DNA of 64,000 bases from Bradyrhizobium sp. AUGA SZCCT0283 (lineage in GTDB: Bacteria; Pseudomonadota; Alphaproteobacteria; Rhizobiales; Xanthobacteraceae): NCBI RefSeq assembly GCF_018130385.1, contig NZ_JAFCLU010000002.1, positions 248,001-312,000 on the forward strand, read 5' to 3'. The stretch's first letter is position 1, and each line of letters begins with the position of its first letter. Position numbers and translations under genes: made by a program. This document shows positions 13,173-44,463 of the stretch, piece by piece. Below the pieces are notes generated by a model. The model saw only the letters and a program-made list of their open reading frames with translations, was not told where the DNA came from and did not search any database.

Positions 13173-14741
13173 ATGCGTCTGCCGATGCATCTGAAGACGA
13201 TTTCGATCGCGCTCGCGGTCGTCGTCGTCTCGTTTGCGGCGAGCCTGAAGGTGATGGACTTCGTCGCGCCGCGCGCCACGAACCGGCCGCCCGCGCTCGC
13301 CGAATTGCCGCCGCTGCCGCCGGTGCCGCGCGCCTCCACCGTGATGGCGCCGATTGCGGTTGCGCTCTCGGCGATCCGCGACGCCGCCGATCGCGGCGCG
13401 CCGCGCAACTTCACCGGCAAGGCCGACAATCCGATCTCACAGATCCTGCAGAATGCCGATATCGGCTGGACCGCCTCGCGCGGGCCGATCAACGCGACCG
13501 GCGCGCAGGACGTGCTGTCGCTGGCGACACCGCTGACGGGAACACTCAACGTCACGGGCTCGCTGTCGGCGAAGGCGACGGGCGCGGTCGGCGACGCGCT
13601 CGGCGGCCTGCTCGGCGGCAATGTCGCGAAACAAATCGGCAGCGTAAACATCAAGAACCTCAACGCCAGCGCCGAGATCAAGGGCAACGTCGTCATCACG
13701 GCGCGGCCGAAGATCGCCACGAACTGGCGCATCGAGCCCAACCTCGCAGCGCAGGTCAATCTCAGCGACTCGAGCCTCAGCGTGGCGGGCGCGCGCGTCA
13801 ACGTACCCGCGCAGGTGAAGCCGTTGATCGACAAGAACGTCGCCGAGCAGATCGCGCTGGTGCAGGCGCGCATGCGCAACGATCCGGCCTTCGAACAGAA
13901 CGCGCGGGCGCAATGGGCCAAGGCCTGCCGCTCGATCCCGCTGCAGGGCACGACGGCCGGTTCGACGATGCCGACGCTGTGGCTGGAGTTGCGCCCCATA
14001 CGGGCGATTGCCGCGCAGCCGCGCATCGACGCTTCCAACCTTACGCTGACGCTCGGCATCGAGGCGGAGACCCGGATCACGCCGGCCGAGACCAAGCCGT
14101 CCTGCCCGTTCCCCGCCACGATCGCCATCGTGCCGCCGACGCCGGGACGGGTCGCGATCGGCGTTCCCATCGACATGCCCTTCACCGAGCTCAACAGAAT
14201 CGTGGAAGCGCAGTTCGCCGGAAAGACTTTTCCGGAAGATGGTTCCGGCTCGGTCGATGTCACCGTCAAGCGCGCCAGCGTCGCGGCGTCGGGCAACCGC
14301 CTCTTGATTTCGCTGCTGGTGAGCGCCAAGGAAAAGAAGAGCTTCCTGGGGCTGGGCGGCGAAGCCAATGTGCATATCTGGGGAAGGCCGGTGCTCGATC
14401 AGGCCGAGCAGACGCTGCGGCTGACCGATATCGAACTCGCCGTCGAGTCGGAGGCCGCCTTCGGGCTATTGGGTGCAGCGGCGCGCGCGGCCATCCCGCA
14501 CTTGCAGAAGACGCTGGCGGAAAAGGCAACCGTCGACCTCAAGCCGTTCGCCGCCAACGCCCAGAAAAAGATTGCGGCCGTGATCGCCGATTTCCAGAAG
14601 AACGAGGAAGGCCTGCGGGTCTCGGCCGAGATCAGCAAGCTGCGGCTTGCCGACATCGCCTTCGATTCCAAAACGCTGCGCGTGATCGCGGAAGCCGAAG
14701 GCGCAATCAACGTCTATGTGAGCGCGCTGCCGGGATTGTGA
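13173..14741 (+). CDS. DUF4403 family envelope protein
   Basis: 522 aa. I start at ATG 13173 because GGGGGCACG precedes it; another ATG lies at 13155. Residues 7-26 are hydrophobic (ISIALAVVVVSFAASL), a signal anchor or signal peptide, followed by a Pro-rich linker (~38-55). The rest matches the DUF4403 layout: a long series of beta-rich repeats with the motifs VPAQVKPLIDKNVAEQI, LRPIRAIAAQPRIDASNLTLTLGIEAETRI, and a C-terminal pair (LRLTDIELAVESEAAFGLLG, LRVSAEISKLRLADIAFDSKTLRV) recalling lipid-binding BPI/SMP-like folds. No enzyme residues seen. It lies 104 bases upstream of an export operon on the same strand, so a role in envelope lipid or export is possible but unproved. Confidence 0.75.
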   Translation: MRLPMHLKTISIALAVVVVSFAASLKVMDFVAPRATNRPPALAELPPLPPVPRASTVMAPIAVALSAIRDAADRGAPRNFTGKADNPISQILQNADIGWTASRGPINATGAQDVLSLATPLTGTLNVTGSLSAKATGAVGDALGGLLGGNVAKQIGSVNIKNLNASAEIKGNVVITARPKIATNWRIEPNLAAQVNLSDSSLSVAGARVNVPAQVKPLIDKNVAEQIALVQARMRNDPAFEQNARAQWAKACRSIPLQGTTAGSTMPTLWLELRPIRAIAAQPRIDASNLTLTLGIEAETRITPAETKPSCPFPATIAIVPPTPGRVAIGVPIDMPFTELNRIVEAQFAGKTFPEDGSGSVDVTVKRASVAASGNRLLISLLVSAKEKKSFLGLGGEANVHIWGRPVLDQAEQTLRLTDIELAVESEAAFGLLGAAARAAIPHLQKTLAEKATVDLKPFAANAQKKIAAVIADFQKNEEGLRVSAEISKLRLADIAFDSKTLRVIAEAEGAINVYVSALPGL

Positions 14742-14845
14742 CGCGGCGATGGGGAACAACTTGACCTGTCTCAAACAGAGTTCAGGGCAAAGCGCTAGCT
14801 ATGATCGGCCGCTCATCGAAGCGGATTGGGCAGTAGCAGGACATC

Positions 14846-15586
14846 GTGACGCTGAACCAACCCCGGCAGCAAGGCGAACCCCGTCGCGTGGTCTTTCGGG
14901 CCCGCGATCTGTCCAAGACCTATGTGATGGGCGAAGTCGAGGTCCACGCGCTCAGGGACGTCAATCTCGATATCTATGAAGGCGAATTTGTCGTGCTGCT
15001 CGGGCCGTCCGGTTCAGGCAAGTCGACGCTGCTCAACATCCTCGGCGGGCTCGACGCACCGACCGCCGGCCAGGCGCGCTGGCGCGACCATGACCTTGTC
15101 GGCGCCGATGACGCCGAACTGACGCGCTACCGGCGCGAGCATGTCGGTTTCGTGTTTCAGTTCTACAATTTGATTCCGAGCCTGACCGTGCTCGAGAACG
15201 TGGCGCTGGTGAACGAGATCGCCGACAAGCCGCTCGATCCCCGCGAGGCGCTGGCGCTGGTCGGCCTCGAACGGCGGCTCGATCATTTTCCCTCGCAGAT
15301 TTCCGGCGGCGAGCAGCAACGCGTCGCGGTCGCCCGCGCCATCGTCAAATCACCCGATGTGCTGTTGTGCGACGAGCCGACCGGAGCGCTCGATTACGAG
15401 ACCGGCAAGGTGGTGCTGGCCGCGATCGCGCGGGTCAATGAGCGGCTCGGCACCACGACCGTGATCATCACCCACAACGCGGCGATCGCGGGCATGGCGG
15501 ATCGCGTTCTGCGCCTCGGCGGCGGACGCATCGTCGGCGAGGAGCACAATGCGCGCCGGCTTTCGCCGGAAGAGGTGCGCTGGTGA
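14846..15586 (+). CDS. ABC transporter ATP-binding protein (LolD/MacB/DevA type)
   Basis: 246 aa. GTG start with AGCAGGACATC upstream. Complete ATPase motifs: Walker [10 protein letters not shown] (residues ~52-60), Q-loop [17 protein letters not shown], signature [15 protein letters not shown], Walker [13 protein letters not shown], and H-loop ITHN. The length and the T-G-A-L-D motif place it in the LolD/MacB/DevA group that powers FtsX-like permeases (mechanotransmission rather than substrate passage). Its stop overlaps the start of the permease gene (GTGA), so the two are translationally coupled; the HlyD gene follows. Together they form an export operon of the DevBCA kind. Confidence 0.93.
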
Positions 15587-35593: not shown

Positions 35594-37390
35594 CTATTTC
35601 GCCTCGGCCCGCTTCGGCGGGGTGGCCGGCCACGACTTCACCAGCGTGTCGTAGTCGACGGTTTCGCCCTTCGGCTTTTCGTTCGCCAGCTTGCGCTGGG
35701 GAGCGATGTTGCCGTCCTTCGCGGACTTGGCGAACCAGAACTCGGCCGTCTCCTTCTTGTTCAGCTTCGGCCCGCAGGCACCCTGCACGCCGGACTTCTC
35801 AAGACGTTCGAGCACCGAGTCCTGCGCTGCTGCCAGCGCATCCATCGCCGCCTGCGGCGTCTTCGCACCGGACGACGCATCGCCGATGTTCTGCCACCAC
35901 AATTGCGCGAGCTTCGGATAGTCAGGCACGTTGTTGCCGGTCGGGGTCCACTGCACGCGCGCGGGCGAACGGTAGAACTCGATCAGGCCGCCGAGCTTCG
36001 GCGCACGCTCGGTGAACGACTTGTCCCAGATGTCGGATTCACGCACGAAGGTGAGACCGACATGGCTCTTCTTCAAGCTGACCGTCTTGGAGTTGATGAA
36101 CTGCAGATAGAGCCAGGCCGCCTTGCGGCGATCGGGCGGGGTCGACTTCAGGAGCGTGGCCGAGCCGGCGTCCTGGTAGCCGAGCTTCATGCCCTCTTTC
36201 CAGTACGAGCCGTGCGGCGACGGCGCCATGCGCCACTTCGGCGTACCGTCCGCGTTCACGACTGCGATGCCCGGCTTCACCATGTCGGCGGTGAAGGCGG
36301 TGTACCAGAAGATCTGCTGGGCGATGGCGCCTTGCGCCGGCACCGGACCTGCTTCGGAGAAGGTCATGCCTTGCGCCTGCGGCGGGGCATACTTCTTCAT
36401 CCAGTCGAGATATTTGACGATCGAATAGACCGCCGCCGGGCCGTTGGTGTCACCGCCGCGCTCGACGGACGAACCGACGGGACGGCAGCCTTCCATGCGG
36501 ATGCCCCATTCGTCGACCGGCTTGCCGTTCGGGATGCCCTTGTCGCCGTTGCCGGCCATCGACAGCCAGGCGTCGGTGAAACGCCAGCCGAGCGAGGGAT
36601 CCTTCTTGCCGTAGTCCATGTGGCCGTAGATCTTGACGCCGTTGATCTCCTTGATGTCGTTGGTGAAGAACTCGGCGATGTCTTCATAAGCCGACCAGTT
36701 CACGGGAACGCCGAGGTCGTAGCCGTACTTGGCCTTGAACTTGGCCTTGTAGTCCGGATTGGAGAACCAGTCGTAGCGGAACCAATAGAGGTTCGCGAAC
36801 TGCTGGTCGGGCAGCTGATAGAGCTTGCCGTCCGGGCCGGTGGTGAAGGATTTTCCGATGAAGTCGTTGACGTCGAGCTGTGGGTTGGTGACGTCCTTGC
36901 CCTCGCCGGTCATGTAATCCGACAGGATCACGGTCTGGCCGTACCGGAAGTGCGTTCCGATCAGGTCGGAATCGTTGATCCAGCCGTCATAGACGTTCTT
37001 GCCGGACTGCATCTGGGTCTGCAGCTTTTCAACGACGTCACCTTCCTGGATCAGATCGTGCTTGACCTTGATGCCGGTGATTTCGGTGAAGGCTTTCGCC
37101 AGCGTCCGGGATTCATACTCGTGCGTCGTGATCGTTTCCGACACGACGTTGATTTCCATGCCCTTGAACGGCGCTGCGGCTTTTTCGAACCACTGCAGCT
37201 CCTTCAACTGGTCGGCCTTCGACAGTGTCGAGGGCTGGAATTCGCTGTCGATCCACCTCTGATTGACGGCGTCGTCCGCACGGGCGGGTGCGGCAATCGT
37301 CACGGAAGCCGCGATCAGCGCAGCCGCGCTGGTCATCGTCAGAAAGCTCTCCTTGGTCAAGGGACCGTTTCTTCCTCTCAAGCGTCGCAT
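35594..37390 (-). CDS. glpV: Glycerol ABC transporter substrate-binding protein
   Basis: 598 aa. ATG 37390 with GGAGGATCCAAC; the frame to 37522 lies upstream of this site. Signal peptide ~1-38 (MTSAAALIAASVTIAAPARA at its end, cut before DD). Large periplasmic solute-binding protein of the extracellular family 1 kind (VKHDLIQEGDVVEKLQTQMQSGKNVYDGWI; LYWFRYDWFSNPDYKAKFK), longer than the usual ~420 aa, as known for GlpV of Rhizobium leguminosarum, which binds glycerol and some sugar alcohols. Last gene of the glpR-D-S-T-P-Q-U-V cluster, 74 bases after glpU; ends at a bidirectional terminator. Confidence 0.9.
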   Translation of the reverse strand: MRRLRGRNGPLTKESFLTMTSAAALIAASVTIAAPARADDAVNQRWIDSEFQPSTLSKADQLKELQWFEKAAAPFKGMEINVVSETITTHEYESRTLAKAFTEITGIKVKHDLIQEGDVVEKLQTQMQSGKNVYDGWINDSDLIGTHFRYGQTVILSDYMTGEGKDVTNPQLDVNDFIGKSFTTGPDGKLYQLPDQQFANLYWFRYDWFSNPDYKAKFKAKYGYDLGVPVNWSAYEDIAEFFTNDIKEINGVKIYGHMDYGKKDPSLGWRFTDAWLSMAGNGDKGIPNGKPVDEWGIRMEGCRPVGSSVERGGDTNGPAAVYSIVKYLDWMKKYAPPQAQGMTFSEAGPVPAQGAIAQQIFWYTAFTADMVKPGIAVVNADGTPKWRMAPSPHGSYWKEGMKLGYQDAGSATLLKSTPPDRRKAAWLYLQFINSKTVSLKKSHVGLTFVRESDIWDKSFTERAPKLGGLIEFYRSPARVQWTPTGNNVPDYPKLAQLWWQNIGDASSGAKTPQAAMDALAAAQDSVLERLEKSGVQGACGPKLNKKETAEFWFAKSAKDGNIAPQRKLANEKPKGETVDYDTLVKSWPATPPKRAEAK

Positions 37391-37464
37391 GTTGGATCCT
37401 CCGGTTGCAGCGACAAAAACAAACTCAGGCCCGGGTTGATCCCGGATCTGCTCTTTTTCGCTTC

Positions 37465-37791
37465 CTAGACGGTGCGGAAAATCGCAACGGCCGATAGAAG
37501 CGAAATCACGGTTGCGAGCCACAGGCTCGATATTTCAACGCCCTCTCCGATCGGAAGCGTCAGAAGCGGGTCGATGCCGACAAATGCGATCCACAACAGA
37601 TGGATAACGGCGGCGAGCACCAGCGAAATGAACAGCCGGTCGCCGCGCGTGGTCGGAATGCGCAGCACGCCGACGCGTTCGGCTTCGGGATAGGCGACCG
37701 CAAGCCACGTCATCGCGCCGAGCGTCAGCGCCAGCATCACGAAGAAGATCGCGGTCGGGAGCGTCCAGGCCATCCATGCGATGTGTTCCAT
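37465..37791 (-). CDS. glpU: Small membrane protein of the glycerol transporter (DUF2160)
   Basis: 108 aa with three hydrophobic helices (~8-33, ~55-75, ~87-104). DUF2160 family; in rhizobia the gene lies between glpQ and glpV as here. R. leguminosarum GlpU is part of the transport operon but its job is unclear; an auxiliary or stabilising subunit is likely. A palindromic repeat (37812-37860) lies between glpQ and this gene. Confidence 0.85.
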   Translation of the reverse strand: MEHIAWMAWTLPTAIFFVMLALTLGAMTWLAVAYPEAERVGVLRIPTTRGDRLFISLVLAAVIHLLWIAFVGIDPLLTLPIGEGVEISSLWLATVISLLSAVAIFRTV

Positions 37792-37811: not shown

Positions 37812-37860
37812 GCGCATGATCTCGTCCGAAAACCGGTGCCCACTTTTCGGGATCATGCGC
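37812..37860. repeat. Family-F palindromic repeat between glpQ and glpU
   Basis: GCGCATGATC ... GATCATGCGC ends pair perfectly; the centre (CCGAAAACCGGTGCCCACTT) is the well-known rhizobial repeat core. It overlaps the last base of the glpQ stop codon, so it lies inside the operon's transcript. Confidence 0.85.
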
Positions 37861-38666
37861 TACACCCGTCCCAGCGCAAAGCCGCGCGCGATGTAATTGC
37901 GGACGAACCAGATCACCAGGGCGCCGGGGATGATCGTGAGCACTCCGGCCGCGGCCAGCAGGCCCCAGTCCATCCCGGAGGCCGAGACCGTGCGCGTCAT
38001 GATGGCCGAGATCGGCTTGGCGTTGACCGAGGTCAACGTGCGCGCCAGCAGCAACTCGACCCAGGAGAACATGAAGCAGAAGAACGCGGCGACGCCGATA
38101 CCGCTCGCGATCAGCGGCACCAGGATCTTGACGAAGAAGCGCGGGAACGAATAGCCATCGAGGAACGCAGTCTCGTCGATCTCGCGCGGCACGCCGGAGA
38201 CGAAGCCTTCGAGGATCCAGACTGCCAGCGGCACATTGAAGATGCAATGCGCGAGCGCGACCGCCCATGGCGTATCGAACAGATTGATCGCCGAATAGAG
38301 ATTGAAGAACGGCAGCGCGTAGACCGCCGCCGGCGCCATGCGGTTCGACAGCAGCCAGAAGAACAGATGCTTGTCGCCGAGGAAGCGGTAGCGCGAGAAG
38401 CCGTAGGCCGCCGGCAACGCCACCGCGATCGAGATCACGGTGTTGATCAGCACATAGGTCAGCGAGTTGGTGTAGCCGGAATACCAGCTCTCGTCGGTGA
38501 AGATGCGCTTGTAGTTTTCCAGCGTCGGCTGGTGCGGCCACAGCGTCATGGTGGTGACGATCTCGGTATTGGTCTTGAAGCTCATGTTGACGAGCCAGTA
38601 GATCGGCAACAGCAGGAAGATCAGGAACAGCGAAATGATAAGGCGGCGGCCGGGAATCGAATTCAT
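37860..38666 (-). CDS. glpQ: Glycerol ABC transporter permease GlpQ
   Basis: 268 aa, starting at ATG 38666 inside the TGATG overlap with the glpP stop (the open frame to 39074 is a shadow). MalG-like permease with six helices (first ~8-28). The EAA loop is EIDETAFLDGYSFPRFFVKILVPLI, which docks to the ATPases. Forms the membrane channel with GlpP for glycerol uptake. Translation is coupled to glpP by the one-base overlap. Confidence 0.9.
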   Translation of the reverse strand: MNSIPGRRLIISLFLIFLLLPIYWLVNMSFKTNTEIVTTMTLWPHQPTLENYKRIFTDESWYSGYTNSLTYVLINTVISIAVALPAAYGFSRYRFLGDKHLFFWLLSNRMAPAAVYALPFFNLYSAINLFDTPWAVALAHCIFNVPLAVWILEGFVSGVPREIDETAFLDGYSFPRFFVKILVPLIASGIGVAAFFCFMFSWVELLLARTLTSVNAKPISAIMTRTVSASGMDWGLLAAAGVLTIIPGALVIWFVRNYIARGFALGRV

Positions 38667-39568
38667 CACGCGCCCCCTGGCTTGACGGGACGCTCGGCCC
38701 CGGCGTTGGTCATCACGGTGTAGAAGATCCAGCACACGATCAGGATGATCAGATTGTAGACCAGCGACAGTGCCGCGGCCTTGCCGAGGTCGAACTGCCC
38801 GAGCGCGATCTTGACCAGCTCGATCGAAACGAAGGTGGTCGAGTTGCCGGGGCCGCCGCCGGTCACCACGAACGGCTCGGTGTAGATCATGAAACTGTCC
38901 ATGAAACGCAGCAGCACCGCGATCAGGAGCACGCGATTCATCTTCGGCAACTGGATCGCCTTGAACACCGCCCAGCGCGAGGCGCCGTCGATCTGCGCCG
39001 CCTGGTAATAGGCGTCGGGGATCGACTTCAGCCCGGCGTAGCACAGCAGTGCCACGAGGCTGGTCCAGTGCCACACGTCCATCACGATGACGGTGGCCCA
39101 GGCATCGAACTCATTGGAGACGTAATTGTAATCGAAGCCGAGGCCGTTGAGCGTATAGCCGAGCAGGCCGATGTCGGGCCGACCGAAAATCTGCCAGATC
39201 GTTCCGACCACGTTCCACGGGATCAAGAGCGGCAGCGCCAGGATCACGAGACATACGGCGACGGTCCAGCCCTCGCGCGGCATCGACAGCGCCACCACGA
39301 TGCCGAGCGGCACCTCGATCGCCAGGATGATGGCGGAGAACAGCAGGTTGCGGCCGAGCGAGGCCAGAAAGCGCCCGCCGAGATCGGTCGAGGGATCGAG
39401 CAACTCCTTGAACCAGCCGACGCCGTTCCAGAAAAACTGGTTGTTGCCGAACGTGTCCTGCATCGAATAGTTCACGACCGTCATCAGCGGCAGGATCGCG
39501 GAGAACGCGACCACCAGGAATACCGGCAGCACCAGGAACCAGGCTTTCTGGTTGATGGTCTTGTCCAT
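38666..39568 (-). CDS. glpP: Glycerol ABC transporter permease GlpP
   Basis: 300 aa MalF-like permease with six helices (first at ~12-35, WFLVLPVFLVVAFSAILPLM). The EAA loop region is YYQAAQIDGASRWAVFKAIQLPKM. Partner of GlpQ. Its start overlaps the glpT stop by one base and its stop overlaps the glpQ start by one base, so transporter subunits are made in step. Confidence 0.9.
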   Translation of the reverse strand: MDKTINQKAWFLVLPVFLVVAFSAILPLMTVVNYSMQDTFGNNQFFWNGVGWFKELLDPSTDLGGRFLASLGRNLLFSAIILAIEVPLGIVVALSMPREGWTVAVCLVILALPLLIPWNVVGTIWQIFGRPDIGLLGYTLNGLGFDYNYVSNEFDAWATVIVMDVWHWTSLVALLCYAGLKSIPDAYYQAAQIDGASRWAVFKAIQLPKMNRVLLIAVLLRFMDSFMIYTEPFVVTGGGPGNSTTFVSIELVKIALGQFDLGKAAALSLVYNLIILIVCWIFYTVMTNAGAERPVKPGGA

Positions 39569-40653
39569 CAGGCTACCCCCTCGACCAGACGGCTGTCGGC
39601 ATAGACGTGAACATGGGCGGGATCGAACACGAGCCCGACCGAGTTGTCGGGCACGGAAAATCCCGGCGGCACGCGGGCGGCGAATTTTGCATCGCCGATG
39701 CGAACGCGGGCGAAGCGGACGCGGCCGAGATCGTCGATGCGCTCGATCGTGGCCGACAGCAGGCCGGATGCGGGAGCGGCGACGTTGACGAATTCCGGCC
39801 GTACGCCGATCTCGATCCTGGCGCCCGCCGGCAGCACGCCATAATTGCGGTGCAGGCCGATAACGTGGCCATCGATGCGCGCCTCGTGTCCGCTCACCAC
39901 GGCAGGGACGATGTTCATGCCGGGCGAACCGATGAAGTAGCCGACAAAAGTGTGCTCGGGCTTGTCGAACAGCTCCGCCGGCGTGCCGCTCTGCACCACG
40001 CGGCCGTCATGCATGACGACGACGGTGTCGGCGAAGGTCAGCGCCTCGGTCTGGTCATGGGTGACGTAGATCATCGTCAGGTCAAGCTCGCGGTGCAGCG
40101 CCTTGAGTTTTGAACGCAACTGCCATTTCAGCTCGGGATCGATTACCGTCAGCGGCTCGTCGAACAGCACCGCGGCGACGTCGGAGCGGACGAGGCCGCG
40201 GCCGAGCGAAATCTTCTGCTTGGCGTCAGCCGTCAGGCGCGTCGCTTTACGGTCGAGATAGAACGTGAGGTCGAGCAGATCGGCGATCTGCCTCACCCGC
40301 GCGTCGATCTCGTCTTTCGGCACACCGCGGTTTTTCAGCGGGAATGCGAGGTTCTGTCCGACCGTCATGGTGTCGTAGATCACCGGAAACTGGAACACCT
40401 GCGCGATGTTGCGCTTCTGGGTTGACAGCGGTGTGATGTCGGCGCCGTCGAACAGGATTTTTCCGCGCGACGGCGTAACGATGCCGGAAATAAGGTTGAG
40501 CAGCGTGGTCTTGCCGCAACCGGACGGGCCGAGCAGCGCATAGGCGCCGCCCTGCCGCCAGGTCATGGTCACCGGCTTCAGCGCAAATGATTCCACCGGC
40601 GCGTCATTGCCGCCGTAGGAGTGCGCGAGATCAACGAGGTCAATGCGGGCCAT
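39568..40653 (-). CDS. glpT: Glycerol ABC transporter ATPase GlpT, degenerate signature motif
   Basis: 361 aa, MalK-type with a C-terminal TOBE-like domain (~240-350). Walker A GPSGCGKTT (42-50), Q-loop QVFQFPVIYDTMTV, Walker B AVLFDEP (161-167) and H-loop YVTHDQTEA (His199) are intact. The LSGGQ signature is replaced by LTADAKQ (140-146): both glycines are gone. It pairs with GlpS, whose signature is intact but whose H-loop His is lost, so the heterodimer should have one working and one degenerate ATP site. Starts 12 bases after glpS; stop overlaps the glpP start. Not to be confused with the E. coli glycerol-3-phosphate antiporter GlpT. Confidence 0.9.
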   Translation of the reverse strand: MARIDLVDLAHSYGGNDAPVESFALKPVTMTWRQGGAYALLGPSGCGKTTLLNLISGIVTPSRGKILFDGADITPLSTQKRNIAQVFQFPVIYDTMTVGQNLAFPLKNRGVPKDEIDARVRQIADLLDLTFYLDRKATRLTADAKQKISLGRGLVRSDVAAVLFDEPLTVIDPELKWQLRSKLKALHRELDLTMIYVTHDQTEALTFADTVVVMHDGRVVQSGTPAELFDKPEHTFVGYFIGSPGMNIVPAVVSGHEARIDGHVIGLHRNYGVLPAGARIEIGVRPEFVNVAAPASGLLSATIERIDDLGRVRFARVRIGDAKFAARVPPGFSVPDNSVGLVFDPAHVHVYADSRLVEGVA

Positions 40654-40665
40654 GTCGCATCTCCC

Positions 40666-41805
40666 TCAATTGCTTTTATTTTTTGACGCGTTTTCTTCAC
40701 GCGAACCGCTACGCACTTCGCTTGAAAACGCTGCATTCGGCGCCGCGACCAGGCGGTCGGCGGCGTCGAACACGAAAACATTGTCGGGATCGAGCACAGC
40801 ATCGAGCACATGGCCGGGCTCGTATTCATGCACGCCCTGCAGCACCGCGACCCAATTGGAAGCGTCGCGGTTGAGATGCACGAAACTCTCGGAGCCGGTG
40901 ATCTCGGTCACCGTCACGGTGGCGTGGAACGCATGGCGGCCGGCGATGCCGTTGGCCACTTCGAGCTGATGGGCGCGGAAGCCGACGCGATAGGGGCCGT
41001 CGGCGAGCGATGCGTAGAGGCCGGTGGCCGGCGCCTGGATGCCGCCGGCATATTGTACAGAGCCGTTCTTTTTCTCGATGCCGACGATGTTGAGCGGCGG
41101 ATCGGAGAACACCTGCGCCACCCGCAGCGTATCGGGCTGGCGATAGACTTTTGACGTATCGCCCGCCTGCAAGACCTGGCCTTCCCACATGCAAACGGTA
41201 TTTCCGCCGAGCAACAAGGCTTCAGAGGGCTCCGTGGTCGCATAGACGAAGATCGCCCCCGACGCCTCGAAGATGCGCGGCAGTTCGGTACGCAACTCCT
41301 CGCGCAGCTTGTAGTCGAGATTGGCGAGCGGCTCGTCGAGCAGAACGAGGTCGGCGCCCTTGACCAGCGCACGCGCGATCGCGGTGCGCTGCTGCTGGCC
41401 GCCGGAAAGCTGCAGCGGCGTGCGCTTCAGATAGGGCTCGAGCCGCAGCAGTTTTGCGGCTTCCTGGACGCGCCGGTCGATCTCCTCGCGCGGCCTGCCC
41501 TGCACCCGCAACGGCGAGGCGATGTTCTCATAGACCGTCAGCGAGGGATAATTGATGAACTGCTGATACACCATCGCGACCGAGCGTTGTCGCACGTCCA
41601 CAGCCGTGACATCCTTGCCATCGACCAGCACGCGGCCGCTCGCAGGTTTGTCGAGACCGGCGAGCAGACGCATGATCGATGTCTTGCCCGACAGCGTCGG
41701 TCCGAGCAGCACGCTCAGCGTGCCGCGTTCGAGCGTCAGCGAGACATCGCGAATGGTCGGGATGCCGTCCACGGTTCGCGTGACATGTTCGAGCGTGACG
41801 CTCAC
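40666..41805 (-). CDS. glpS: Glycerol ABC transporter ATPase GlpS, H-loop His missing
   Basis: 379 aa MalK-type ATPase. Walker A GPTLSGKTS (35-43), Q-loop MVYQQFINYPSLTV, signature LSGGQQQRTAIARAL (133-147) and Walker B LVLLDEP are intact, but the H-loop reads YATTEPSEAL where YVTHDQTEA is usual: His is Thr191, and the D and Q are E and P. The last ~17 residues (FSSEVRSGSREENASK) are encoded by a copy of the dispersed repeat family G (40681-40732). GTG start overlaps the glpD stop by four bases (GTGA). Confidence 0.9.
   Translation of the reverse strand: MSVTLEHVTRTVDGIPTIRDVSLTLERGTLSVLLGPTLSGKTSIMRLLAGLDKPASGRVLVDGKDVTAVDVRQRSVAMVYQQFINYPSLTVYENIASPLRVQGRPREEIDRRVQEAAKLLRLEPYLKRTPLQLSGGQQQRTAIARALVKGADLVLLDEPLANLDYKLREELRTELPRIFEASGAIFVYATTEPSEALLLGGNTVCMWEGQVLQAGDTSKVYRQPDTLRVAQVFSDPPLNIVGIEKKNGSVQYAGGIQAPATGLYASLADGPYRVGFRAHQLEVANGIAGRHAFHATVTVTEITGSESFVHLNRDASNWVAVLQGVHEYEPGHVLDAVLDPDNVFVFDAADRLVAAPNAAFSSEVRSGSREENASKNKSN
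40681..40732. repeat. Family-G repeat forming the glpS 3' end
   Basis: Read on the minus strand: AGCGTTTTCAAGCGAAGTG, CGTAGCGGTTCGCGTGAAG, AAAACGCGTCAAAA, which aligns with copy 1 at 10225-10277 at all but about six of 52 positions. It is in frame with, and read as, the C-terminus of GlpS. Confidence 0.85.
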
Positions 41806-43346
41806 GGTCGCCCTCCCGCTTCACGCAAGGGACGCTCGCCGGGGGTGCGATGGGTTTTGATCCACTCGTCGAGCGCGGCAATTTCGTCTGGCGACAGCCG
41901 CAACCCGAGCTTGGACCTTCGCCATACCACATCATCGGCGGTGCAGGCCCATTCGTTCGACATCAGGTACCTGACTTCGCTCTCCGTCAAGGTGGCGCCG
42001 AACGACTGGCCGAGATCGGCCAATGATTTCGCGTTACCGAGCAATTTTGTCGCACGCGTGCCATAGGCATGCGCGAGCCGGTTGGCATGCGCCTTATCGA
42101 GGAACGGGTATTCCCGCATCAGTTCCGCCGTCAGCGCGGCGACCGCCGAAACATCCATGTCGCCGCCGGGCAGCGGTGACTTGCCGGTCCAGCCTTCCTT
42201 GGCTTTGGCGCTGCGCAAGTATGGCGAGAGCCGCTCCAGCGCTTCCTCGGCGAGCCGCCGATAGGTCGTGATCTTGCCGCCATAGATCGACAGCAACGGC
42301 GCGCCACCGGGCGTATCGAGTTCGAACACGTAATCGCGGGTCGCAGCTTTCGCTTCGCTGGCGCCGTCATCATAGAGCGGCCGCACGCCGGAATAGGTCC
42401 AGACGACATCCGCAGGCAGCACAGGCTTTTTGAGGTATTCGCTGGCCGACGCGCAGAGATATTGAATCTCCTCAGGGCTGGCTTTCACCTTGGCCGGATC
42501 GCCGTCGTAATCGCGATCGGTGGTGCCGATCAGGGTGAAATCGTCCTGATAGGGAATGACGAAGATGATGCGGCCGTCGGCGTTCTGGAACATGTAGGCG
42601 CGGTCGTGCGCATAGAGCTTGCGCACCACGATGTGGGAGCCCTGCACCAGCCGCACTTTTGCGCGCGCGTTGACGCCCGAACCCGACGAGAGCACCTGTT
42701 CGACCCAAGGGCCGCCGGCGTTGACCAACGCGCGCGAGCGAATGGTAGTACGCTCACCGCTCATGGTGTTCTCGACGGTGACCTGCCAGATACCGTCGAC
42801 CTGACGGATCTCGACCGCGCGCGAGCGGGTGTGGATTTCGGCGCCGCGATCGGCGGCGTCGCGTGCGGTGAGCACAACGAGGCGCGCGTCATCGACGAAG
42901 CAGTCGGAATATTCGAAGCCCCTGGTGTAGCGGTTGGCAATCAGAGGCTTGCCTACCTCGTCACGCGCGAGATCGACCGAGCGGGTCGGCGGCAGCAGAT
43001 GACGGCCGCCGATATGGTCATAAAGAAACAACCCCAGCCTGAGCAGCCAGGCCGGACGCAATCCGGAGTGGTGCGGCAAAACGAAACGCAACGGCCTGAT
43101 GATGTGGGGCGCGATCTGCCAGAGGATTTCGCGCTCAATCAGCGCCTCACGGACCAGCCGGAATTCGTAATATTCGAGATAGCGCAGCCCGCCATGCACC
43201 AGCTTGGTCGACCAGGACGACGTTCCGCTCGCCAAGTCATTCATTTCACAAAGGAAAACGGAATTGCCTCGGCCCACCGCATCGCGCGCGATGCCGCAGC
43301 CATTGATGCCGCCTCCGATAATGGCGAGGTCGAATACCCTGTCCAC
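41802..43346 (-). CDS. glpD: Aerobic glycerol-3-phosphate dehydrogenase
   Basis: 514 aa. I start at GTG 43346 (VDRVFDLAIIGGGINGCG), with GGGGAAG seven bases before it; a GTG at 43376 is also open. FAD-binding GGGINGCGIARDAVGRG at ~10-26; then SSWSTKLVHGGLRYLEYYEFRLVREALIERE and GGKITTYRRLAEEA typical of GlpD. It oxidises glycerol 3-phosphate to dihydroxyacetone phosphate at the inner membrane, passing electrons to ubiquinone. Second gene of the glp cluster; glycerol kinase is not in the window. Its stop overlaps glpS. Confidence 0.93.
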   Translation of the reverse strand: MDRVFDLAIIGGGINGCGIARDAVGRGNSVFLCEMNDLASGTSSWSTKLVHGGLRYLEYYEFRLVREALIEREILWQIAPHIIRPLRFVLPHHSGLRPAWLLRLGLFLYDHIGGRHLLPPTRSVDLARDEVGKPLIANRYTRGFEYSDCFVDDARLVVLTARDAADRGAEIHTRSRAVEIRQVDGIWQVTVENTMSGERTTIRSRALVNAGGPWVEQVLSSGSGVNARAKVRLVQGSHIVVRKLYAHDRAYMFQNADGRIIFVIPYQDDFTLIGTTDRDYDGDPAKVKASPEEIQYLCASASEYLKKPVLPADVVWTYSGVRPLYDDGASEAKAATRDYVFELDTPGGAPLLSIYGGKITTYRRLAEEALERLSPYLRSAKAKEGWTGKSPLPGGDMDVSAVAALTAELMREYPFLDKAHANRLAHAYGTRATKLLGNAKSLADLGQSFGATLTESEVRYLMSNEWACTADDVVWRRSKLGLRLSPDEIAALDEWIKTHRTPGERPLREAGGRP

Positions 43347-43385
43347 CAAACGCTTCCCCGGCGACCGCCTCTTCACTTCGGCGAT

Positions 43386-43632: not shown

Positions 43633-44463
43633 CTATTTCAACCGCACCACCGTCGAAGCCGACTCGCCGTTCGGCTCGTCGATATCCGCCGCCGGCTTGT
43701 CCATCGCCTCGACCACTTCGATGCCCCGATGGTGGCAGATGCTGGCAAGGCCCGCCGGCAGCGGCGCATCGGTCACGAAGGTCTGGATCTGGCTGAGATG
43801 GGCGATGCGCACCGGGGCGCTGCGCCGAAGTTTGGTCGAGTCCGCGACCAGCATGACGCTGCGGGCGTTGGCGATGATCGCCTGCGCGGCCTGCACCTCG
43901 CGATAATCGAAGTCGAGCAGCGCGCCCTCCTCGTCGATCGCGGATGCGCCGATGATGGCGTAATCGACCTTGAACTGGCCGATCAGGCTGATCGCGGTCG
44001 AGCCGATCACCGCGCCGTCGGCGCGGCGCACCGCGCCACCCGCCACGATCACCTCGATGCGCGGGTGCCGATACAAGAGCATCGCGACGTTGAGGTTGTT
44101 GGTGATGACGAGCAAATCCTCATGCGAGGTCAGCGCGCTCGCGACTTCTTCCGTCGTGGTGCCGATGTTGATGAACAGCGAGCAGCCGTTCGGAATCCGC
44201 GACGCCGCGGCGATGCCGATTGCCCGCTTCTCCTCCGCCGCCACGAAGCGCCGCGCCTCATAGGCGAGGTTTTCAACGCCAGAGGCGATGATGGCGCCGC
44301 CATGGATGCGGGTCAGCGAGCGCTGGTCGCAGAGGTCGTTGAGATCCTTGCGGATGGTCTGCGCCGAAACCTCGAAACGCTTGGCGAGGTCTTCCACCAT
44401 CACCCGGCCAAAGGCGCGGGCGATGTTGAGGATTTCAGTCTGGCGGTGGGACAGTCCGGCCAT
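43633..44463 (-). CDS. glpR: DeoR-family repressor GlpR
   Basis: 276 aa. N-terminal DeoR winged helix (~5-58: SHRQTEILNIARAFGRVMVEDLAKRFEVSAQTIRKDLNDLCDQRSLTRIHGGA), then the DeoR sensor domain (~75-235) with INIGTTTEEVA, VITNNLNVA, VIVAGGAVRR, and DYAIIGASAIDEEGALLDFDYREVQ. In the E. coli model glycerol 3-phosphate binding relieves repression. It heads the glp cluster, 286 bases upstream of glpD on the same strand; the gap probably holds the main glpD promoter and operator. Confidence 0.92.
   Translation of the reverse strand: MAGLSHRQTEILNIARAFGRVMVEDLAKRFEVSAQTIRKDLNDLCDQRSLTRIHGGAIIASGVENLAYEARRFVAAEEKRAIGIAAASRIPNGCSLFINIGTTTEEVASALTSHEDLLVITNNLNVAMLLYRHPRIEVIVAGGAVRRADGAVIGSTAISLIGQFKVDYAIIGASAIDEEGALLDFDYREVQAAQAIIANARSVMLVADSTKLRRSAPVRIAHLSQIQTFVTDAPLPAGLASICHHRGIEVVEAMDKPAADIDEPNGESASTVVRLK

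Follow-up and report, generated by a model that had tools for sequence, protein, structure and literature searches.

In this study, two adjacent ATP-binding cassette (ABC) ATPase genes, glpS and glpT, were investigated in a 64,000-nucleotide stretch of contig NZ_JAFCLU010000002.1 of Bradyrhizobium sp. AUGA SZCCT0283. This whole stretch is called the window, and all features located in it by coordinates lie on its minus strand. glpS (40666..41805) encodes an ATPase of 379 amino acids with the LSGGQ signature and without the H-loop histidine, identified from its sequence, its homologues, and the Pfam domain ABC_tran. glpT (39568..40653) encodes an ATPase of 361 amino acids with the H-loop histidine and without LSGGQ, and it matched Pfam ABC_tran, OB_MalK, and TOBE_2. 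The ABC_tran (PF00005) scores of 107.3 bits for GlpS and 84.8 bits for GlpT were both above the cut-off of 25; the TOBE_2 score of GlpS was slightly under its cut-off (20.2 vs. 21). Single-chain models of both proteins were MalK-like, including the C-terminal domain, with a mean predicted local distance difference test (pLDDT) score of 89.0 for GlpT and 85.0 for GlpS. The close-homologue sets consisted of the best 120 of about 8000 sequences per protein, mostly Bradyrhizobium where named, and served only as input for the folding alignments. The top 20 Foldseek matches were MalK-family chains throughout, with TMq values of 0.77–0.88 for GlpT and 0.73–0.85 for GlpS. The complete catalytic motif set of a MalK-type ATPase was absent from each chain, GlpS lacking the histidine and GlpT the signature.

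GlpS contained the Walker A motif GPTLSGKT (residues 35–42, 41680..41703), the Q-loop residue Gln81, the signature LSGGQQQR (133–140, 41386..41409), the Walker B motif LVLLDE (153–158, 41332..41349), and the D-loop ANLD (161–164, 41314..41325). The non-aromatic Val12 (41770..41772) occupied its A-loop, and its H-loop was YATTEP (188–193, 41227..41244), with Thr191 where histidine is expected. GlpT contained the A-loop residue Tyr13 (40615..40617), the Walker A motif GPSGCGKT (42–49, 40507..40530), Gln88, the Walker B motif AVLFDE ending in Glu166 (161–166, 40156..40173), and the H-loop YVTHDQ with His199 (196–201, 40051..40068). LTADAKQK (140–147, 40213..40236) stood at its signature position, with Asp143 at the second signature glycine, and its D-loop was TVID (169–172, 40138..40149). 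Both proteins aligned to solved MalK-family chains with zero gaps across the signature and H-loop, so the motif register is secure. The initial annotation had assigned to GlpS an intact Walker A, LSGGQ, and Walker B with a His-to-Thr change in the H-loop, which was confirmed in the sequence with the register fixed by alignment. It had assigned to GlpT an intact Walker A, Walker B, and H-loop histidine with loss of the signature glycines (LTADAKQ), and direct reading agreed.

In an ABC dimer, one chain supplies the A-loop, Walker A, Walker B, and H-loop of each ATP site, and the partner supplies the signature and D-loop (PMC9867378; similarly PMC7756269). Because of this geometry, the site made of the GlpT core and the GlpS signature is complete, and the site made of the GlpS core and the GlpT signature is incomplete. 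The incomplete site had no histidine, no LSGGQ glycines, no aromatic A-loop residue, and no usual D-loop. The loss of the A-loop aromatic residue and of the fourth-position Walker A glycine in GlpS, and the TVID D-loop of GlpT, were additions to the initial annotation, and all of them fall on the same composite site. One canonical site combined with several non-consensus motifs at the other characterizes ABC transporters with one degenerate site, and this combination was found in GlpS/GlpT. The sequence analysis suggested, with a probability of roughly three in four, that GlpS and GlpT are a head-to-tail pair in a likely glycerol importer, with one complete ATP site and hydrolysis probably confined to it.

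Relatives were picked by whole-protein GlpS similarity (E value of 1e-70 to 1e-75 or better) and not by motifs; below this similarity, a GlpS-like protein with the histidine could escape notice. The whole-GlpS searches gave matches in 45 of 385, 85 of 398, and 74 of 199 genomes, in sets that overlap and that each include the genome of the window. GlpT was read from the frames neighbouring GlpS. This yielded 182 GlpS sequences, including that of the window, and 180 pairs; the two remaining loci (L154 and L184) end at a contig edge. Full matches in genomes G596 and G695 and contig-end pieces in G826 (C21 and C22) stood outside the counts.

At the canonical site, LSGGQQQR of GlpS was identical in all 182 sequences, and its D-loop was ANLD in 137 and VNLD in 45. 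Tyr13, Lys48, and YVTHDQ of GlpT were present in 180/180, and Glu166 in 179, with one residue unread. At the degenerate site, the H-loop residue of GlpS was never His in the 182 sequences but Thr (156), Ser (22), or Ala (4). Its A-loop residue was Val in 167/182 (aromatic in 3 of the 180 paired rows), and the fourth Walker A residue was Leu in 147/182 and Gly in only 16. Lys41, the Walker B Asp-Glu with Glu158, and the Q-loop Gln of GlpS were each invariant (182/182). LSGG was found in 0/180 GlpT sequences; Lys145 and TVID were invariant (180/180), and Asp143 was present in 177, with one Glu and two Ala in the others. The initial annotation had named as counter-evidence homologues whose GlpT has LSGGQ or whose GlpS has His; their numbers were 0/180 and 0/182. 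The same split was present in 180/180 adjacent pairs, and thinning to below 80% GlpS identity left it in 124/124 loci. The initial assignment of the GlpT core and GlpS LSGGQ to a canonical site, and of the other site to the degenerate class, is well supported by these pairs. In 15 loci (e.g., L046, L044, and L175), GlpS combined Ser in the H-loop with a Gly-type Walker A, and GlpT had LSPDNKQK. The two chains may have changed in concert at the degenerate site, perhaps in one clade and one event, and this pattern was not counted as evidence.

A split of this kind in a single genome could reflect decay of GlpS and GlpT confined to this strain. No support for this was found, and its probability is next to nil: the 180 pairs, from relatives chosen without motifs, were split alike, and TVID and Lys145 are invariant though non-canonical. 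Strain-specific decay was rejected. Judged from sequence, GlpS/GlpT is a conserved and constrained predicted heterodimer, not a product of decay.

Mean column entropy was computed for both sites in the 124 thinned loci. For the canonical vs. the degenerate site, it was 0.00 vs. 0.23 bits in the H-loop, 0.00 vs. 0.62 bits in the signature, 0.36 vs. 1.76 bits in the A-loop, 0.19 vs. 0.58 bits in Walker A, and 0.06 vs. 0.12 bits in Walker B. Four motifs were thus less conserved at the degenerate site, two differed little between the sites, and the D-loop was more tightly conserved at the degenerate site. This site is altered yet apparently under a constraint of its own.

Other ABC ATPases of the same genome had the H-loop histidine and [LM]SGG in 23/23 cases; these 23 ATPases came from 20 stretches, out of 150 matches listed. 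Control ATPases of loci L226–L292 had His and SGG in 71/71 readable sequences (72 aligned, one unreadable). These loci were chosen by LSGGQQQR or DEPL[AV]NLD, so the signature count is biased and the His count is unbiased. A frame at 14117–15529 of locus L215, outside the control count, had the signature LGAAKRQM and kept the H-loop histidine; it is perhaps a fused RbsA-type sugar ATPase. Degenerate signatures therefore occur in other ATPase types. A second family of tandem MalK-type ATPases was found in 13 loci. All 26 of its chains had both the His and the second signature Gly, and in two loci one chain had Ser in place of the first signature Gly. Its representative in the genome of the window (contig C53:1-19900, L293, 4055–10659) has adjacent genes, like glpS and glpT, and both of its chains keep the two residues that GlpS/GlpT lost. 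Tandem arrangement alone as the cause of the split was rejected, since this family keeps both residues in 13/13 loci. The second pair adjoins dhaK (TIGR02363 above cut-off) and a gene similar to phosphotransferase system (PTS) enzyme I, a neighbourhood checked in this genome alone, and it is perhaps an importer feeding dihydroxyacetone kinase.

The minus-strand gene order in the window was glpR, glpD, glpS, glpT, glpP, glpQ, a DUF2160 gene, and a binding-protein gene. glpP (38666..39568) encodes a permease subunit with Pfam BPD_transp_1. glpQ (37860..38690) encodes the second permease subunit, with BPD_transp_1 for the reading 37860–38663 and a GlcU/MalG/UgpE-like match below cut-off for 37860–38690. 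The small DUF2160 membrane protein (37465..37791, Pfam DUF2160) would correspond by position to glpU of the Rhizobium leguminosarum operon. glpV (35594..37522, open reading frame as listed) encodes a predicted solute-binding protein whose SBP_bac_8 score of 25.7 bits was below the cut-off of 27. glpD (41802..43376) encodes glycerol-3-phosphate dehydrogenase (NF008899, 787.7 bits, cut-off 360), and glpR (43633..44463) encodes a DeoR-family regulator (Pfam DeoRC and HTH_DeoR). The window therefore contains the GlpSTPQUV importer gene set of two ATPases, two permeases, a DUF2160 protein, and a binding protein, with glpR and glpD adjoining. The R. leguminosarum glpSTPQUV importer was reportedly first described by Ding et al. 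in 2012. The analysis indicates that the window encodes a GlpSTPQUV-type system, and the operon similarity makes glycerol the likely substrate of this copy. A DUF2160 match was also present in 13 of 16 loci with wide flanks; it was absent from two actinobacterial loci and from L222, which ends early. The gene set and name of glpSTPQUV, the glycerol importer operon of R. leguminosarum, were taken from PMC7912956. No difference in gene set was found between the window, this operon, and Rmet_2229-2234 of Cupriavidus metallidurans as given there. The words Walker and heterodimer were absent from PMC7912956, which therefore leaves the motif split undiscussed. In C. metallidurans, derepression of the homologous importer led to higher resistance to both zinc and cadmium through an unexplained mechanism (PMC7912956).

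GlpS and GlpT are predicted to form an obligate heterodimer. The losses would enforce their pairing because a GlpS homodimer would lack both histidines and a GlpT homodimer both signatures. That GlpS and GlpT instead serve separate transporters or act as homodimers, without pairing, is highly improbable, since a dimer of either chain by itself would have both sites short of one set of catalytic residues. A solved structure of the GlpS–GlpT complex was absent among the best 60 chains listed per protein, which leaves room for this alternative. The gene arrangement argues against it. The two genes were neighbours in 180/182 loci with GlpS, and the remaining two loci were those at a contig edge. 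GlpS lay directly before GlpT on the same strand in 179/180, the remaining locus (L099) having overlapping stop-to-stop frames. In the 16 wide-flank loci, GlpP was matched in 16 and GlpQ in 15, the sixteenth locus being cut off. GlpS and GlpT pairwise distances correlated at 0.87 (7626 pairs, 124 thinned loci), as expected for partners inherited together.

In the proposed heterodimer, hydrolysis would take place only at the site of the GlpT core and GlpS signature, and one ATP would be spent per transport cycle. The incomplete site would still bind nucleotide, because GlpS keeps its Lys, Asp, Glu, and Q-loop Gln, and would provide a hinge or a contact for closure during hydrolysis at the complete site. 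In GlpT, the fixed Asp143 may weaken or reshape the gamma-phosphate contact of the incomplete site. For Pdr5 and TAP, a separate role of the silent site has been reported (PMC7756269). In ABCC1, mutation of the H-loop histidine at the degenerate site affects transport little, and mutation at the canonical site nearly abolishes it, with some substitutions excepted (PMC6222333; PMC7756269).

Several observations weigh against hydrolysis at one site in a glycerol importer. The invariance of the GlpS Walker A Lys and Walker B Asp-Glu goes beyond the apparent need of a dead site, and because these residues are retained, slow hydrolysis at the GlpS site is possible. The D-loop was tighter at the degenerate site (0.20 bits canonical vs. 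0.00 degenerate), and the Q-loop was equal (0.20 vs. 0.19). An H-loop mutant of Pdr5 retains ATPase activity, so loss of the histidine is sometimes tolerated (PMC6222333). As regards the substrate, the homologous C. metallidurans transporter was dispensable for growth on glycerol (PMC7912956).

Hydrolysis at both sites was considered as an alternative. Here, Glu158 and Thr191 of GlpS, with water, would replace the histidine, and LTADxKQK with Lys145 would be an alternative signature. The invariant Glu158, Lys41, and Lys145 and the presence of Thr or Ser at the H-loop in 178/182 are consistent with this, and water relays have been discussed for an absent histidine (PMC6222333). However, the histidine, the signature glycines, the A-loop aromatic residue, and the usual D-loop were lost jointly at one site, and H-loop His substitutions leave less than 2% of the ATPase activity in MalK and HisP (PMC6222333). 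Hydrolysis at both sites is therefore unlikely. Less likely still is a nucleotide-free, purely structural degenerate site, with a single ATP closing the dimer. In its favour, the aspartate at the second glycine of the signature would point towards the gamma-phosphate, and the A-loop aromatic residue is lost. Against it, GlpS has an invariant Lys in Walker A, Asp-Glu in Walker B, and Gln in the Q-loop, a pattern suggestive of retained Mg-ATP binding. Hydrolysis confined to the complete site, with nucleotide bound at the other, remained the preferred reading.

MalK is a homodimer with two complete sites. E. coli MalFGK2 (MalK/UgpC, CUT1, type I) shares the fold and domain plan with the present system, and its two permeases and its binding protein are of a broadly similar type. 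GlpS and GlpT differ from MalK/UgpC as a split pair, and both were under the curated UgpC (NF008653) cut-off of 432 bits (253.4 for GlpS and 281.7 for GlpT). The initial annotation had placed pairs of one canonical and one degenerate site mainly in exporters. This held in part: exporter cases are known, but RbsA and NupO, fused importer ATPases of Bacillus subtilis, have also been described with one degenerate site (PMC11466899). In these type II importers, both domains are in a single chain and the second Walker A has no Lys, whereas GlpS and GlpT are separate MalK-type chains and the Lys is kept. TAP, TM287/288, ABCC proteins, and Pdr5 likewise have one canonical and one degenerate site, with the losses spread over both domains; unlike these exporters, GlpS/GlpT is a MalK-type importer. 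Degenerate sites occur in 21 of 29 full-length or heterodimeric human ABC proteins, all with a changed signature and some with H-loop changes (PMC7756269). The signature change is thus common to GlpS/GlpT and the exporter sites, and the H-loop change is shared with some. The Walker B Glu is often changed in exporters (the second most frequent change; ABCG5/G8 excepted; PMC7756269), whereas GlpS keeps Glu158. Literature searches on degenerate sites of importers and on this transporter found no MalK-type example, with subscription journals mostly outside their coverage. Degenerate sites are known, importers included, and the MalK-type split pair is new as far as the literature was searched.

In a tree built without the motif columns, the 21 GlpS rows formed one group and the 21 GlpT rows another, each with a Shimodaira–Hasegawa-like approximate likelihood ratio test (SH-aLRT) support of 100. 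This was a quick tree with no inferred root, and some of its rows carried warnings about long branches and composition. One chain of the dhaK-side tandem pair stood beside GlpT at 86, with long end branches and composition warnings, and no sister relationship is claimed. The split was found in 13/13 further pairs on other genome contigs (L213–L225), including Bradyrhizobium valentinum, Gemmobacter caeruleus, Rhizobium sophoriradicis, Geminicoccus harenae, Pseudomonas fluorescens HKI0874, P. laurylsulfativorans, Cupriavidus numazuensis, and metagenome-assembled genomes of Comamonadaceae. It was also present on a Streptomyces plasmid (L210), on a Comamonas odontotermitis plasmid (L211), and in a third pair (L325). 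On plasmid pRLTa9k of R. leguminosarum Ta9k (L212, 7606–8148), the glpT frame looks interrupted, with a fragment match only and no coding sequence listed.

The actinobacterial loci L210 and L225 had the same split, and their permease matches were just 28–31% identical to GlpP/GlpQ (tblastn). DUF2160, GlpD, and GlpR had no tblastn match in about 17 kb around each of them. The split pair looks rare around the phylum of L225, as 2 of 296 genomes sampled there matched, one being that of L225 itself. A wider reading can be offered tentatively, at odds slightly short of even. GlpS/GlpT would represent a MalK-type importer family that spends one ATP per glycerol and uses the second site as a nucleotide hinge. 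The hinge would be made by the fixed non-canonical residues, namely Asp in the signature, Thr/Ser in the H-loop, and the TVID D-loop. The pair would have arisen once and been reused by a different importer in actinobacteria.

Asp143 of GlpT stands at what we take to be the position of G551D, the LSGGQ change of CFTR in cystic fibrosis; a literature search for G551D and LSGGQ found nothing. If this parallel holds, a disease-type residue is the normal state in GlpT. GlpS/GlpT, a MalK-type importer pair that occurs in nature and had one altered site in all pairs sampled, offers a system for studying the ATP spent per substrate and the role of a silent site.

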